From assembly GCF_012932215.1 (NCBI RefSeq), contig NZ_CP048788.1, positions 3,224,001-3,288,000 of the forward strand: 64,000 nt of DNA, given 5' to 3'. The DNA comes from Roseobacter ponti (GTDB lineage Bacteria > Pseudomonadota > Alphaproteobacteria > Rhodobacterales > Rhodobacteraceae). The notes below the pieces were generated by a model. The model worked only from the letters and a program-made list of their open reading frames with translations, was not told the DNA's origin and did no database searches. Below are positions 1,660 to 16,355 of this stretch, piece after piece. The position numbers and the translations under genes are program-made. Position 1 is the stretch's first letter; each line of letters begins with the position of its first letter.

Positions 1660-3521
<1,862 letters not shown>

Positions 3522-8395: not shown

Positions 8396-8905
8396 ATGAC
8401 CTTCTCAGAAGCGGTCAGAAGTTCATTCCGGCAATATGCCACATTTTCCGGCCGGGCATCCCGGGCAGAGTACTGGTTTTTCTTTCTGTTCTGCCTGCTC
8501 GGCGGCCTGATCAGCGGGCTTTTCGAGAACACACTCAACCGCGCGTTCGGCGAGGATCAGGGGCCGACGATCCTGTCGGGTACTTTTAACCTGATCACAT
8601 TCCTGCCCGGACTTGCCGTCGCCTGGCGCCGGATGCATGACAGCGGGCGTTCCGGACTGCTGTTTCTGTATCCGCTGCTCGTGCTGATCGGTCTTGGCAC
8701 CATCGCCACGCTCACCGGCAGTTTTGGTGAACTCTTGCCCGGCAGCGACGGCACACCACCTTTTGAGGGGCCCGCTGCCATCATTGTCTCGCTGATGATG
8801 ATCGTAATGGCTCTGACGCCCCTGGTTTTTCTGTGGTGGCTCACGCGTCCCTCCCAACCCGGCCCCAACACCTATGGTCCTAACCCACATGAGGTAACCC
8901 CATGA
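8396..8905 (+). CDS. DUF805 family inner-membrane protein
   Basis: A 169-residue membrane protein with four hydrophobic segments. The opening FRQYATFSGRASRAEYWFFFLFCLL and the later WRRMHDSGRSG are the signature of DUF805 proteins, small inner-membrane proteins of unknown function. The gene overlaps sucA by ATGA, so its translation is coupled to the 2-oxoglutarate dehydrogenase E1. The C-terminus (PSQPGPNTYGPNP) is the typical family tail. The conserved overlap may reflect operon packing and not shared function. Confidence 0.88.
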   Translation: MTFSEAVRSSFRQYATFSGRASRAEYWFFFLFCLLGGLISGLFENTLNRAFGEDQGPTILSGTFNLITFLPGLAVAWRRMHDSGRSGLLFLYPLLVLIGLGTIATLTGSFGELLPGSDGTPPFEGPAAIIVSLMMIVMALTPLVFLWWLTRPSQPGPNTYGPNPHEVTP

Positions 8906-11865
8906 CCGACCACCCCGCCAACGACCAGTTTCACGCCTCGAGTTTCATGCAGGGGCATAACGCCGAGTATCTTGAACAGATGTACGCGCGCTATGCCGCC
9001 GACCCCGGTGCCGTCGATGAGGCATGGCAGGCGTTTTTCAAAGCCATGGGAGACGATGAGGTCTCGGTCAGAAAAGAAGCCGCCGGCCCGTCCTGGGCGC
9101 GCAGTGACTGGCCACCGCAACCGGGCGATGATCTGACCGCGGCACTGACCGGCGAATGGGCGCCGGAGCCCGAAGTGAAAGCGGTGACAAAGGCCATCAA
9201 AGGCAAAGCCGGTGAGCAGCAGGTCGAGGTCTCAGAAGAAGCGATCAAACGCGCCGTGCTCGACAGTATCCGGGCGCTGATGATCATCCGCGCCTACCGG
9301 ATCCGCGGCCATCTGGTGGCCGATCTCGACCCGCTGGGCATGCGCAACCAGACGCCACACCCCGAGCTTGATCCGAAATCCTATGGCTTCACCGAGGCCG
9401 ATATGGACCGGCCGATCTTTATCGACAACGTGCTGGGGCTCGAGCTTGCCTCGATGCGCGAAATCCTGTCGATCGTGAAACGCACGTACTGTGGCACCTT
9501 TGCGCTGCAGTACATGCATATCTCCAACCCCGAAGAAGCCGGCTGGCTGAAAGAACGCATCGAAGGCTTCGGCAAAGAAGTGTCTTTCACCCGCGAGGGG
9601 CGCAAAGCGATCCTGAGCAAGCTGGTGGAGGCCGAGGGCTTCGAGAAATTCCTGCATGTGAAATACATGGGCACGAAACGCTTTGGTCTCGACGGTGGCG
9701 AAAGCCTCGTGCCGGCGATGGAGCAGATCATCAAACGCGGCGGCGCCCTGGGCGTCCGGGACATCGTGATCGGTATGCCGCACCGCGGACGCCTGTCGGT
9801 GCTCGCCAATGTGATGGCCAAGCCCTACAAGGCGATCTTCAACGAATTCCAGGGCGGCAGCTTCAAGCCCGAGGATGTGGACGGCTCGGGCGACGTGAAA
9901 TATCACCTCGGCGCGTCATCCGACCGGGAGTTCGACGGCAATACCGTGCACCTGAGCCTCACGGCGAATCCCAGCCACCTCGAAGCCGTGAACCCGGTGG
10001 TGCTGGGCAAGGCGCGCGCCAAACAGGACCAGAACAACGATCCGGACCGCACCTCCTGCATGCCGATCCTGCTGCACGGGGACGCGGCTTTTGCAGGCCA
10101 GGGCGTGGTGGCGGAATGCTTCGCGCTCTCCGGCCTGCGCGGACACAAAACCGGCGGCACGATGCATCTCGTGGTCAACAACCAGATCGGGTTTACAACC
10201 GCGCCGCACTTTTCACGTTCCTCACCCTATCCCACCGACAACGCGCTGGTGGTTGAGGCGCCGATTTTCCACGTCAACGGAGATGACCCCGAAGCGGTCG
10301 TGCACGCGGCCAAAGTGGCCACGGAATTCCGCCAGAAGTTCCGCAAAGACGTGGTCATCGACATCATCTGCTACCGTCGGTTCGGGCATAACGAAGGCGA
10401 TGAGCCGATGTTTACCAACCCGATCATGTATAAAAAGATCAAGGGCCACAAAACCACGCTGAGCCTTTATACCGAGCGTCTGGTGCGCGACGGGCTGATC
10501 CCCGAAGGCGAGATCGAAGACATGAAAGCCGCCTTTCAGGCGCACCTCAGCGAGGAGTTTGAGGCCGGCAAGGAGTACCGCCCGAACAAGGCCGACTGGC
10601 TTGATGGCAAGTGGTCCCACATCGATAAGATGAAGGAAAAACGCTATCAGCGCGGCAAGACCGCCATTGCCAAAGGCACGATGGCCGAGGTGGGCAAAGC
10701 GCTCTCCACCGCCCCCGACGGCTTTCCGATCCACAAGACAGTGGGCCGCCTGCTCGAAGCCAAAGAGCAGATGTTTGAAAAGGGCGAGGGCATTGACTGG
10801 GCCACAGCCGAGGCGCTGGCTTTCGGTTCATTGCTGACCGAAGGCTATCCGGTGCGACTTGCAGGCCAGGACAGCGCGCGCGGGACCTTTTCGCAGCGTC
10901 ACTCCGCCCTCATCAACCAGGACACCGAAGAGCGATACTATCCGCTCAACAACATCAAAAAGGGCCAGGCGCAGTATGAGGTGATCGATTCCATGCTGTC
11001 GGAATACGCGGTGCTCGGGTTTGAGTACGGGTATTCGATGGCCGAGCCCAATGCGCTCACCCTCTGGGAGGCGCAGTTCGGGGATTTCGCCAATGGCGCT
11101 CAGATCATGTTTGATCAGTTCATCAGCTCCGGCGAGAGCAAATGGCTGCGCATGTCGGGCCTTGTGTGTCTGCTGCCGCACGGGTTTGAGGGTCAGGGGC
11201 CCGAGCACTCCTCGGCCCGCCTTGAGCGGTTTTTGCAGATGTGCGGCCAGGACAACTGGATCGTCGCCAACTGCACCACACCGGCCAACTATTTCCACAT
11301 CCTGCGTCGCCAGATCCACCGCAGCTTCCGTAAGCCGCTCATTCTGATGACGCCGAAATCGCTGCTCCGCCACAAACTGGCGATCAGCAGGGCGGAAGAA
11401 TTCACCACCGGCTCATCTTTCCACCGGCTGATGTGGGATGACGCGCAGCAGGGCAATTCGGACACGAAACTGGTCGCGGACGGCAAGATCAAACGCGTGG
11501 TGATGTGCGCGGGCAAGGTCTATTACGATCTGCTGGAAGAACGCGACGCGCGCGGTATCGATGATGTCTATCTGCTGCGGGTGGAGCAGTTCTATCCGTT
11601 CCCGGCGCAGTCTGCCGTTAAAGAGCTGGAACGCTTCAAACAGGCAGAGGTGATCTGGTGCCAGGAGGAGCCCAAAAATCAGGGGGCCTGGACCTTTATC
11701 GAGCCCAATATCGAATGGGTTCTCGGACGGATCAAAGCGAAACACACCCGGCCACGCTATGTCGGCCGCGCCACATCGGCTTCGCCTGCCACAGGCCTCG
11801 CCAGCCAGCACAAAGCACAACAGGCAGCGCTCGTGAACGAAGCGCTGACCATTGAAGGGAAATAA
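8902..11865 (+). CDS. sucA: 2-oxoglutarate dehydrogenase E1 component
   Basis: A 987-residue thiamine-diphosphate enzyme that decarboxylates 2-oxoglutarate and passes the succinyl group to the E2 lipoyl arm. Visible are the N-terminal helix HNAEYLEQMYARYAADP that binds E2, IRGHLVADLDPLG, FGLDGGESLVPAMEQII, GMPHRGRLSVLANV, the ThDP/Mg region with HGDAAFAGQGVVAE, YRRFGHNEGDEP, and the transketolase-like C-terminal half (AQFGDFANGAQIMFDQFIS, LLPHGFEGQGPEHSS). Length is normal for the family. It starts inside the DUF805 stop (ATGA) and ends 3 bp before sucB. Confidence 0.97.
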   Translation: MTDHPANDQFHASSFMQGHNAEYLEQMYARYAADPGAVDEAWQAFFKAMGDDEVSVRKEAAGPSWARSDWPPQPGDDLTAALTGEWAPEPEVKAVTKAIKGKAGEQQVEVSEEAIKRAVLDSIRALMIIRAYRIRGHLVADLDPLGMRNQTPHPELDPKSYGFTEADMDRPIFIDNVLGLELASMREILSIVKRTYCGTFALQYMHISNPEEAGWLKERIEGFGKEVSFTREGRKAILSKLVEAEGFEKFLHVKYMGTKRFGLDGGESLVPAMEQIIKRGGALGVRDIVIGMPHRGRLSVLANVMAKPYKAIFNEFQGGSFKPEDVDGSGDVKYHLGASSDREFDGNTVHLSLTANPSHLEAVNPVVLGKARAKQDQNNDPDRTSCMPILLHGDAAFAGQGVVAECFALSGLRGHKTGGTMHLVVNNQIGFTTAPHFSRSSPYPTDNALVVEAPIFHVNGDDPEAVVHAAKVATEFRQKFRKDVVIDIICYRRFGHNEGDEPMFTNPIMYKKIKGHKTTLSLYTERLVRDGLIPEGEIEDMKAAFQAHLSEEFEAGKEYRPNKADWLDGKWSHIDKMKEKRYQRGKTAIAKGTMAEVGKALSTAPDGFPIHKTVGRLLEAKEQMFEKGEGIDWATAEALAFGSLLTEGYPVRLAGQDSARGTFSQRHSALINQDTEERYYPLNNIKKGQAQYEVIDSMLSEYAVLGFEYGYSMAEPNALTLWEAQFGDFANGAQIMFDQFISSGESKWLRMSGLVCLLPHGFEGQGPEHSSARLERFLQMCGQDNWIVANCTTPANYFHILRRQIHRSFRKPLILMTPKSLLRHKLAISRAEEFTTGSSFHRLMWDDAQQGNSDTKLVADGKIKRVVMCAGKVYYDLLEERDARGIDDVYLLRVEQFYPFPAQSAVKELERFKQAEVIWCQEEPKNQGAWTFIEPNIEWVLGRIKAKHTRPRYVGRATSASPATGLASQHKAQQAALVNEALTIEGK

Positions 11866-11868
11866 CTC

Positions 11869-13434
11869 ATGACCACCGAAGTACGCGTGCCCACGCTGGG
11901 CGAATCTGTGACAGAGGCCACCGTCGCCACCTGGTTCAAGAAGCCGGGCGAAACCGTTGCCGTCGATGAGATGCTCTGTGAGCTGGAGACGGATAAGGTC
12001 ACCGTCGAAGTGCCGTCACCCGTCGCCGGTACACTTGACGAAATCGTCGCTGCCGAAGGCGATACCGTGGGCGTCGATGCCCTGCTGGCAAATATCTCCG
12101 AGGGCGATGCGGGCTCTGATGCCGCGCCGAAAGGCAAAGAATCCGCCAAAGAGGAAGAAGCGCCTGCGTCCTCTGCGCGCACCGCGGCCCCTGCTCCTGC
12201 ATCAGAGGCCGGTGGATCGGTTGATGTGATGGTGCCCACGCTGGGCGAATCCGTCAGCGAAGCCACGGTCAGCACCTGGTTCAAAAAGGTCGGTGACAGC
12301 GTTGCGGCTGACGAAATGCTCTGCGAGCTTGAGACCGACAAAGTCAGCGTCGAAGTGCCTGCCCCTGCTGCCGGTACTCTCACCGATATCCTTGCTCAGG
12401 AGGGCGAAACCGTCAGCGCCGGCGGCAAACTGGCCGTGATGAGCCCCGGCGAAGGCAGTGCCGCGGCAGCCCCCCCGGAAAGCTCTGAAGCCTCCGAGCC
12501 CGCCGCCCCCGCGGCATCCTCTGGCGGCAAAGACACCGAAGACGCCCCCTCGGCGAAAAAGGCCATGGCAGAGGCCGGAATTTCCCGCGATCAGGTCACA
12601 GGATCGGGCCGGGACGGCCGGGTGATGAAAGAAGATGTGGAGGCCGCCATTGCCGCTGCCGGGTCAGCCGCAAAAGGCGGCGGTGCGCCCGCAGCGCCTG
12701 CCGCACCGCGTGCGCCGGTCGCGGCCCCGGATGCGGAACGCGAGGAACGGGTCAAGATGACCCGTCTGCGCCAGACCATCGCGCGCCGCCTCAAGGACAG
12801 CCAGAACACCGCCGCGATGCTGACCACCTACAACGAGGTGGACATGACCGAGGTGATGGCCCTGCGCAACGAATACAAAGACCTCTTTCTCAAAAAGCAC
12901 GGCGTGAAACTGGGCTTTATGTCCTTTTTCACCAAGGCCTGCTGTCACGCGCTGCGCGAGGTGCCCGAGGTCAATGCCGAGATCGACGGCACGGACATCG
13001 TCTACAAAAACTTCGTGCATATGGGCATTGCTGCCGGTACGCCGACGGGCCTCGTGGTGCCGGTGATCCGGGATGCGGATGCGATGTCTTTTGCTGCCAT
13101 TGAAAAGGCAATTGCCGAAAAAGGCGCGCGTGCGCGCGACGGCAAGCTCAGCATGGCGGAAATGCAGGGCGGCACCTTCACCATCTCCAACGGTGGCGTC
13201 TACGGCTCGCTGATGTCCTCGCCCATTCTGAACCCGCCGCAGTCCGGCATCCTCGGCATGCACAAAATCCAGGACCGCCCGATGGCAATCGCCGGGAAGG
13301 TGGAAATCCGCCCGATGATGTATCTCGCCCTCAGCTATGACCACCGCATTGTCGACGGCAAGGGTGCCGTGACCTTCCTTGTGCGCATCAAAGAAGCGCT
13401 CGAGGATCCGCGCCGGCTGCTGATGGATCTGTAG
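11869..13434 (+). CDS. sucB: Dihydrolipoyllysine succinyltransferase (E2), two lipoyl domains
   Basis: A 521-residue E2 of the 2-oxoglutarate dehydrogenase complex. Two lipoyl domains are present: residues 1-80 with lipoyl-lysine K43 and about 118-195 with K158, both in the motif ELETDKV. An Ala/Pro/Glu-rich linker joins them. The peripheral-subunit binding domain follows ([17 protein letters not shown]), then the catalytic domain ending with [11 protein letters not shown], which holds the catalytic His and Asp. Many E2o enzymes have one lipoyl domain (about 400 residues), so the second accounts for the extra length. It lies 3 bp after sucA. Confidence 0.96.
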
Positions 13435-14436: not shown

Positions 14437-14850
14437 ATGACCCCTGAACTGACCGTTCTCTGCCTCGCGGCCCTGTTGCAGGTGGGGCAGTATGTGCTGA
14501 TGGCCGTGCCCGCCAATCTTGAGCTCGGGCCTGGCAAAACGCTGTCGCCGCGTGATCCGCAGCGCATGGGCGGCAGGACCCTGCAGGACCAGGTCAGCCC
14601 GCGCACCGGGCGGCTTTTTCGTGCGCTGAACAACCACTTCGAAGGGCTGATCCTCTTTTCCATCGCGGTGATGATTATCACGCTCAGCGGCCAGTCCGGC
14701 CCGTTTACCACCGCCTGCGCGTGGATTTATCTCGCCGCCCGTGTGGCCTACGTGCCGGCCTATGCCTTTGGGCTTACCCCCTGGCGCTCGCTGATATGGA
14801 TGGCCGGATTCGGGGCCACCGTCCTGATGTTGCTTGCAGCGCTGATCTGA
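14437..14850 (+). CDS. MAPEG family membrane protein, second copy
   Basis: A 137-residue paralogue of the preceding gene, sharing the RLFRALNNHFEGLILF loop and the AARVAYVPAYAFGLTPWRSL motif before the last helix, but with a longer loop between the first two helices (GPGKTLSPRDPQRMGGRT). It resembles the proteobacterial inner-membrane MAPEG subgroup. Tandem divergent copies could form a heteromer, since MAPEG enzymes are trimers; that is inference. The lpd leader with the 11-bp repeat array follows. Confidence 0.85.
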   Translation: MTPELTVLCLAALLQVGQYVLMAVPANLELGPGKTLSPRDPQRMGGRTLQDQVSPRTGRLFRALNNHFEGLILFSIAVMIITLSGQSGPFTTACAWIYLAARVAYVPAYAFGLTPWRSLIWMAGFGATVLMLLAALI

Positions 14851-14879: not shown

Positions 14880-14929
14880 GTGCAATTCTGGTGCACACCC
14901 GGTGCACGTTCGGTGCACAGGTTGTGCAC
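14880..14929. repeat. Five GTGCA(C) motifs at an exact 11-bp period
   Basis: GTGCA begins at 14880, 14891, 14902, 14913 and 14924, each 11 bp after the last; the last four are the palindrome GTGCAC. The spacer bases (ATTCTG, ACCCG, GTTCG, AGGTT) are not conserved, so this is a phased array of short binding sites, not a simple tandem duplication. It lies in the 116-bp gap between the second MAPEG gene and lpd, ending 37 bp before the lpd ATG. A regulatory array for a cooperative DNA-binding protein is the most likely reading. Confidence 0.75.
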
Positions 14930-14966
14930 AGCCCGCAGACCCTGAATTCTGTCCAAGGAGAGACCC

Positions 14967-16355
14967 ATGGCAAGTTATGACGTGATCATCATCGGCTCCG
15001 GCCCCGGCGGCTATGTCTGCGCGATCCGCTGTGCACAGCTGGGCCTGAAAACAGCCTGTGTGGAGGGCCGTGATACGCTGGGCGGCACCTGTCTCAATGT
15101 GGGTTGCATCCCCTCCAAAGCGCTTCTGCATGCAAGCCACATGCTGCACGAGGCCGAGCACAATTTCGCGGCCATGGGCCTCAAAGGCAAAAGCCCGTCG
15201 GTCGACTGGAAACAGATGCTTTCCTACAAGGAGACCACCATCGAGCAGAATACAAAGGGCATCGAATTTCTTTTCAAAAAGAATAAGATAGACTGGCTCA
15301 AAGGCTGGGGCTCCGTGCCTGAAGCCGGCAAGGTGAAGGTGGGCGATGAGGCGCATGAGGCCAAAAACATCATCATCGCCTCAGGATCCGAGCCTGCCTC
15401 CCTGCCCGGTGTCGACGTGGACGAAAAGGTCGTCGTGACCTCCACCGGCGCGCTGGAGCTTGGCAGGGTTCCCAAAAAGCTGGTGGTCATCGGGGCGGGT
15501 GTTATCGGGCTTGAGCTGGGCTCGGTCTATGCGCGTCTGGGCTCGGAAGTCACTGTGGTGGAGTTTCTCGACGTGATCACGCCCGGCATGGACGGCGAGG
15601 TGCAGAAAACCTTCCAGAAACTGCTGAAAAAGCAGGGGCTTGAGTTTATCATGGGCGCGGCCGTTCAGAAGACAGAAGCCACAAAAACAAAGGCAAAAGT
15701 CATCTATAAACTGCGCAAAGACGACAGCGAACACGTGATCGATGCGGACACAGTGCTGGTGGCGACGGGCCGCAAACCCTTTACCGAAGGGCTTGGTCTT
15801 GACGGGCTCGGAATTGAGATGACCAAACGCGGCCAGATCGCTGTGAATAAAGAATGGCAGACAAATGTGTCCGGCATCTACGCCATAGGCGATGTGATCG
15901 AAGGCCCGATGCTCGCGCACAAGGCCGAAGACGAAGGTATGGCAGTGGCTGAGGTGATCGCCGGCAAGCACGGGCACGTCAACTACGGCGTGATCCCGGG
16001 TGTGATCTATACCCATCCGGAGGTCGCCAATGTGGGGGTCACCGAGGAAGAACTTAAAGAAACCGGGCGCGATTATAAGGTCGGCAAGTTCAGCTTTATG
16101 GGCAACGGCCGGGCCAAAGCGAACTTTGCCGGCGACGGGTTTGTCAAAATCCTCGCAGACAAATCAACCGACCGTATTCTGGGCGCACATATTGTCGGGC
16201 CGGCGGCGGGCGATCTCATTCACGAGATCTGCGTTGCGATGGAATTCGGTGCCTCGGCGCAGGATCTCGCGCTGACATGTCACGCGCATCCGACCTATTC
16301 TGAGGCGGTCCGCGAGGCGGCGCTGGCCTGTGGCGACGGCCCGATCCATATGTAA
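14967..16355 (+). CDS. lpd: Dihydrolipoyl dehydrogenase (E3)
   Basis: A 462-residue FAD disulfide reductase that reoxidises the E2 lipoyl groups with NAD. Visible are the FAD motif [14 protein letters not shown], the redox pair in [13 protein letters not shown], the NAD-binding [20 protein letters not shown], the second FAD motif [20 protein letters not shown], and the C-terminal dimer motif with the catalytic [11 protein letters not shown] 14967 has an AAGGAGAG SD. An array of GTGCAC sites immediately upstream suggests that lpd has its own regulated promoter although it follows the sucAB genes. It could also serve other 2-oxoacid dehydrogenases. Confidence 0.97.

Follow-up and report, generated by a model that had tools for sequence, protein, structure and literature searches.

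Ribbon-helix-helix (RHH) regulators such as MetJ and Arc bind tandem operators. Another RHH protein, MatP, recognizes chromosomal palindromes, the matS sites, which are single, non-polar and confined to the terminus, and polar chromosome signals oriented to replication are familiar from Ter sites, KOPS and Chi. The omega regulator of plasmid pSM19035, an RHH ParB protein, is described as binding palindromic and non-palindromic heptads (PMC4803016); its complex becomes stable, and its activity complete, only on four or more contiguous repeats (PMC9499535). For the BrnAT complex, binding to its own promoter and repression from there have been reported (PMC5086665).

Here, we describe an array of five GTGCA units at 11-bp steps upstream of a putative lpd gene, which lies in a 64-kb window (the whole stretch of DNA that was analyzed). 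Comparison with related genomes suggests that this is very probably an operator array of an orphan RHH protein of the BrnA_antitoxin family. Like the operators of MetJ, Arc and omega, it would place RHH dimers on tandem short repeats; unlike omega operators, the arrays described here have an 11-bp step and 5-bp spacers, are dispersed over the chromosome, use lineage-specific hexamers and are mostly oriented to replication. They share with MatP and matS an RHH protein as predicted binder and palindromes on the chromosome, but differ from matS in being multi-site and mostly polar. As with Ter, KOPS and Chi, orientation follows replication; unlike those signals, the arrays are phased, most likely RHH-bound, number about ten to several tens per genome, change their motif between lineages and also occur near the origin. 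In the titles and opening lines of abstracts of the open-licence papers listed, we found no account of dispersed, replication-oriented, position-stable, motif-swapping arrays for an orphan BrnA-type protein. The features of the locus, and the candidate binder gene outside the window, are the following.

8902..13434, plus strand: sucA and sucB, upstream of lpd and in the same direction (Pfam E1_dh, 2-oxoacid_dh)
14437..14850, plus strand: MAPEG-family gene (Pfam MAPEG), ending 30 bp before the first unit
14810-14827: terminator-like site from a consensus scan, outside the array
14880..14929, minus strand (orientation score -4 from neighboring bases): 11-bp-phased array of five GTGCA units, GTGCAA at 14880 and GTGCAC at 14891, 14902, 14913 and 14924
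14891..14929, no strand: four exact GTGCAC palindromes with unrelated 5-bp spacers ACCCG, GTTCG and AGGTT
14973-14946, minus strand: promoter-like site from a consensus scan, outside the array
14957..14962, plus strand: GGAGAG, probable ribosome-binding site of lpd, 3' of the array, as read from the sequence
14967..16355, plus strand: dihydrolipoamide dehydrogenase (Pfam Pyr_redox_2, Pyr_redox_dim), which we take to be lpd from gene context and the original prediction
G000:C1:3584638-3584991: own RHH gene, outside the window, 346 kb from lpd

Both the five starts at exact 11-bp steps and the four full palindromes, which are the last four units, were as originally predicted. The pattern GTGCA-N6-GTGCA-N6-GTGCA gave five overlapping matches in the window versus none in 100 dinucleotide shuffles, with ~1.5e-4 triples expected from base composition, and the lpd array is the sole GTGCA triple array in the window. 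Because lone GTGCAC sites occur there at their expected frequency (20 observed versus 22 expected, no enrichment), it is the spacing that is exceptional and not the word. Arrays of ACCGAC, GTATGG or GTGCAT and their complements were absent from the window at up to two mismatches over three units, and a consensus scan placed no terminator or promoter inside the array.

The prediction had asked whether close relatives keep the period, and this held in part: GTGYAC arrays that align with the own array precede lpd in G005, G007 and G016, while the array is decayed in G004 and absent from G001 and G003. Across the four units of G000, G005, G007 and G016 (the decayed G004 left out), 130 of 144 hexamer positions (90%) versus 55 of 120 spacer positions (46%) agree at lpd. 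Spacers are thus not conserved as strongly as motifs, which supports the idea of a phased, probably protein-bound array with a kept motif and drifting spacers. In another clade, the same place holds ACCGAC arrays (G010, G011 and G012). G018 has a degenerate array there, and G002, G014 and G015 have remnants; G009 was not part of this comparison. These swaps bear on an RNA element, that is, GUGCAC-N5-GUGCAC hairpins in the messenger before lpd. Although GTGCAC is self-complementary and the array ends 38 bp before the start codon, the ACCGAC arrays of relatives cannot form a GUGCAC hairpin, arrays lie in both orientations to genes, and there was no Rfam match at the gathering threshold. Owing to the motif swap at lpd, we reject a hairpin or riboswitch as hardly credible. 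As a separate observation, the N-terminus of lpd in G001 is 99% identical to that of the own genome, yet its upstream region (L269 versus L268) is array-free and resembles G018 and G012, which suggests exchange of the region between species.

A genome scan for runs of at least three sites, which had been proposed with the original prediction, uncovered 11 such places in the own genome (G000; 19 forward and 19 reverse matches, none for the reversed control pattern), and one further array, at 3460880, contains a GTGTAC unit. By Pfam, the neighbors of these arrays include genes for a RadA-like ATPase, a melibiase followed by a short-chain dehydrogenase, a carbamoyltransferase (presumably pyrB), a uracil-DNA glycosylase, a GltD-like enzyme, an ABC permease and a photolyase-related protein. 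The lpd array is therefore one of about a dozen with unrelated neighbors, and its candidate binder is encoded elsewhere; the proposal of an lpd-specific regulator is not borne out. Among the matches listed from several genera, 12 of 113 oriented GTGCAC arrays (at least two units each, genes called on both sides) lie inside a called gene, so most arrays look intergenic; gene positions came from a crude, purpose-made caller. This multi-genus GTGCAC set was drawn from at least 120 listed stretches, and identical array cores were counted once. Twelve rows titled outside Rhodobacterales and the untitled L172 were left out, while six rows titled Flavobacteriia AQU-04 and 39 rows of unread title were retained. 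In the pair L133 and L143, a contig binned as Flavobacteriia (AQU-04) and one from Roseobacter (AQU-03) agree in array and flanks, and the AQU-04 bin is therefore probably contaminated or misnamed.

The change of hexamer at a constant 11-bp step is not peculiar to lpd. Lineages use GTGCAC, GTGTAC, GTGCAT, ACCGAC or GTATGG. GTGCA triples occur in 7 of 59 related genomes: at 11 places each in the own genome and G007, at 9 in G005 and at a single place in each of G001, G011, G029 and G042; G016 has no exact GTGCA triple and solely one-mismatch arrays with GTGTAC. CCGAC triples across the same 59 gave 101 matches in G011, 80 in G009, 18 in G012, 17 in G010, at most 10 in eight other genomes and none in the own genome, with one control match overall. 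Individual positions are shared between these lineages. One own array lies inside valS, in frame within a variable protein linker, where G000, G005 and G007 have GTGCAC units and G009, G010, G011 and G012 have CCGAC at 11-bp steps in the same place. Different hexamers in different genera were also found at the gltD 3' flank, leuC-leuD, livG-livH, the propionyl-CoA carboxylase locus and prfC (these names, like valS, are our reading of the proteins). Single arrays of the other type occur as well: G007, a GTGCAC genome, holds one ACCGAC array (L247) at a position common to G010 and G012, and G011, an ACCGAC genome, holds one GTGCAC array (L051). Some ACCGAC arrays of G011 (L256 and L265) are preceded by an inverted copy, GTCGGTG-N5-CACCGAC.

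We identified a candidate binder among the neighbors of the arrays. Small RHH-like proteins are encoded beside arrays of both motif types at seven loci (L107, L109, L201, L123 and L137; L231 and L244). The own RHH protein matches Pfam PF14384 BrnA_antitoxin (E 3.6e-12, above the curated cut-off), as do three further array-adjoining RHH-like proteins, and we take BrnA to be an RHH family. These proteins thus belong to the same Pfam family as the antitoxin BrnA; unlike BrnTA, their loci have no adjoining BrnT-like open reading frame (0 of 43 loci, ORFs of at least 60 aa within 700 bp, by a BrnT motif), while the same motif was positive for 11 of the 13 ordinary BrnA loci that we examined on viral contigs. 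They therefore appear to form an orphan group within the antitoxin family. AlphaFold models were poor (mean pLDDT 54.5 and 62.3), and a low-confidence model has helices at 59-67 and 72-88 after an uncoiled segment, with no strand called. Foldseek returned no RHH match, and the search for a sequence relative in the PDB gave none that convinced (best E 0.069), so the predicted RHH fold rests on Pfam and the residue pattern. PADLOC (two proteins) and NCBIfam (four proteins) returned no family. The idea that plasmids or phages carry the RHH gene was considered and set aside, with just two distant plasmid matches and no phage match. ZapT, a Caulobacter terminus binder, was likewise dropped as a candidate; passages of PMC7188993 report no consensus motif for it.

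The presence of the RHH protein tracks that of the arrays. In the genus, 8 of 19 genomes have an RHH match at E < 1e-7 and ten have none; matches reach E 1e-26 or better in the GTGYAC lineage (G000, G005, G007 and G016) and about 1e-8 in the ACCGAC lineage (G009, G010, G011 and G012), with G018 at 3.6e-5. All seven genus genomes with at least 15 array matches are among the eight with RHH (Fisher 1.6e-4). Genus genomes without a close RHH gene have 10 (G006), 7 (G018), 4 (G015), 3 (G014) and 1 (G008) CCGAC matches, and G001, also without one, has a single GTGCAC array. Across 248 genera, an RHH match was found in 84 and a GTGCA triple in 25, and RHH was present in 20 of these 25 versus 64 of the 223 others (p = 8e-7; overlap tallied by hand from tables). 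GTGCA-array genomes without a detected RHH protein are G181, G189 (73% complete), G208, G232 and G281. The arrays of the last three look like chance, and the single-match genomes, several of which are among the 25, could be chance too. According to these sequence comparisons, protein type and hexamer vary jointly from one lineage to another, while the 11-bp step and many of the positions are retained.

The arrangement upstream of the RHH genes points the same way. The own RHH gene has an 11-bp array upstream, and a blind search over steps of 7-18 bp upstream of 43 RHH genes (five found beside GTGCAC arrays, nine from the genus and 29 by family protein homology) returned 11 bp as the best step in 34, including 22 of the 29 homology-selected loci. 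In these 29, a strong 11-bp array (score at least 15) was found upstream in 20, downstream in none and in shuffled sequence in none; fixed-spacing repeats upstream of the regulator's own gene are thus a further likeness to MetJ and omega. RHH loci below this score are those of G080, G138, G112, G027, G094, G123, G188, G282 and G105. For comparison, of the 13 ordinary BrnA loci from viral contigs, L368 alone exceeds a score of 15 for an upstream array with 11-bp steps, and its best period is 15. In G109, G116, G147 and G158, the array upstream of the RHH gene reads GTATGG. GTATG triples were predicted in these genomes and then found, with 126 matches in G109, 18 in G147, 10 in G116 and 4 in G158; in 56 other genomes, which served as the control (GTATG is the same backwards and the reversed pattern is uninformative), G188 had 49 and the remainder 0 to 2. 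G188 (L325) has an RHH gene and 49 GTATGA-type matches, yet no array upstream of that gene; the genome may have a second binder, or the gene may have moved.

PhoB/OmpR-type regulators recognize direct repeats whose period is 10 or 11 bp. A member of another DNA-binding family, such as a response regulator of this type or an MraZ-like ring, could thus make the array, and the RHH gene, which does sit downstream of an array, would be merely one target. However, in both genus and family, the occurrence and type of the RHH protein follow the occurrence of arrays and their hexamer, and we consider another family quite improbable as the binder, although some other protein might follow the arrays more closely.

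If the RHH protein is the binder, residues of its predicted DNA-reading strand may relate to the hexamer. Strand positions 1, 3 and 5 tend to be R-T-R with GTGCAC, K-T-Y with ACCGAC, R-T-A with GTGCAT (G172, G074 and G089) and K-T-R or K-T-N with GTATGG. GTGCA arrays occur in 11 of 18 genomes with R at position 1 versus 1 of 11 with K or Q (p = 0.008); the R genomes without a GTGCA triple (7 of 18) are G235, G138, G188, G250, G273, G119 and G239. Owing to exceptions (K-T-R with GTATGG, GTCGG and GGCTGC; R-M-S with GTGCAT in G105; R-T-R with GTATGA in G188), the relation is a tendency and not a strict code. Ordinary BrnA proteins have R-T-R as well, in a search whose pattern itself favors this combination.

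Although the GTGCAC hexamer is a palindrome, the arrays have a direction. In oriented GTGCAC arrays, a common head, GGGGGGTGATATGC, immediately precedes the first unit (59 arrays, selected for their TGA, among the matches listed); head, hexamers and neighboring bases are conserved, and no conserved far end was found. In GTATGG and GTCGG lineages, units begin with CGT on the G-rich strand, where C precedes GT in 90% of 86 GTATGG and 82% of 156 GTCGG units, a feature not imposed by selection of the units. G274 departs from this rule, with G preceding ATGCAC in 72% of 46 units.

In four motif lineages, the orientation of most arrays follows replication. Local GC skew is positive in the head orientation for 105 of 126 GTGCAC arrays (108 of 129 in a second count) among the matches listed, and agrees for 37 of 40 CCGAC arrays, 19 of 20 and 4 of 4 GTATGG arrays in G109 and G147, and 14 of 15 GTGCAT arrays in G274. 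The G109 and G274 samples are 20 and 15 loci from longer lists, and for G147 five loci were fetched and one lacking an exact GTATGG triple was left out. For GTATGG and GTCGGT, whose G-rich strand coincides with that of the chromosome, motif composition could contribute to the skew; for GTGCAC, a palindrome, it could not. The bias is seen both where flanking genes share the direction of the array and where they oppose it. Genes on both sides are antisense versus sense to the array in 43 versus 26 and 21 versus 8 cases, 9 versus 4 in G109 and 0 versus 3 in G147. On replichore maps (parS taken as the origin region and the terminus as its opposite), agreement was seen for 8 of the 10 own arrays that could be oriented (p = 0.055 for these alone). 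The two that disagree lie at 3059 and 3369 kb, and the array at 1418 kb is not orientable. The window array is among those that agree, lying on the left replichore and pointing along the minus strand. Hand tallies gave agreement for 9 of 11 arrays in G010 and 9 of 10 in G012, two genomes that share many positions.

Strand bias would also be expected of a proliferating REP/MITE-like element with replication-strand-biased insertion, in which case the RHH protein would serve the element and not host control. Unequal copy number within the genus (17 matches in G010 versus 101 in G011), the longer conserved head of oriented GTGCAC arrays (a G-run and TGATATGC) and the in-frame valS array in a variable linker would fit such an element. 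However, hexamers are kept while spacers drift, homology over a whole element with defined ends was not found, and one inserted element does not explain the same positions across genera with different hexamers. We therefore regard a mobile element as unlikely and favor operator arrays of the RHH protein.

In the mechanism that we propose for these operators, one RHH dimer would bind each hexamer, and dimers would stack every 11 bp on one helix face. Several sites would be needed, giving a cooperative, directional nucleoprotein rod that may repress the RHH gene itself through its upstream array. Elsewhere, the rod could locally block or repress transcription that runs through it or into the gene that follows, here lpd, which might thereby be separated from upstream read-through; we propose roadblock or repression at the targets tentatively, at somewhat less than even likelihood. 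The cell would tolerate the rod chiefly in the orientation in which the replication fork can pass. Most simply, polarity would then be a by-product, because rods have a direction and only those that the fork is able to displace would be tolerated. A rather doubtful alternative is that orientation is itself the function, and that RHH arrays are chromosome-wide direction markers, stable in position over long evolutionary spans, whose spelling is rewritten lineage by lineage. It is conceivable, if again doubtful, that such markers act as a polar fork barrier or as an address for a replication- or segregation-linked machine. What is rewritten under this less probable reading would be the DNA-reading strand of the protein together with all of its sites.

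If the operator reading is true, an orphan antitoxin-type protein gains a genome-wide role, one that annotation by family match alone, as a BrnA antitoxin, would hide. The lineages would also offer a natural series of protein and operator pairs (GTGCAC, GTGTAC, GTGCAT, ACCGAC and GTATGG), a basis for deducing a recognition code of RHH proteins. They also pose a puzzle, namely why replication-oriented operators stay put while their sequence is replaced.

Further observations concern the surroundings of GTGCAC arrays and their occurrence in viruses. In viral contigs, 25 GTGCAC stretches were listed, several with near-identical spacers like simple tandem repeats. At L205, L210, L211, L214, L220, L222, L224 and L225, viral contigs have three GTGCAC units in 11-bp steps within or next to genes of a single family common to them, and these are possibly unrelated coding repeats. 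Among L122, L140, L145, L151, L179, L187, L196, L201 and others, GANTC and a G run precede the head in one array group, which includes several from AQU-03/04, and many arrays are flanked by GTTAAC/TTAA.
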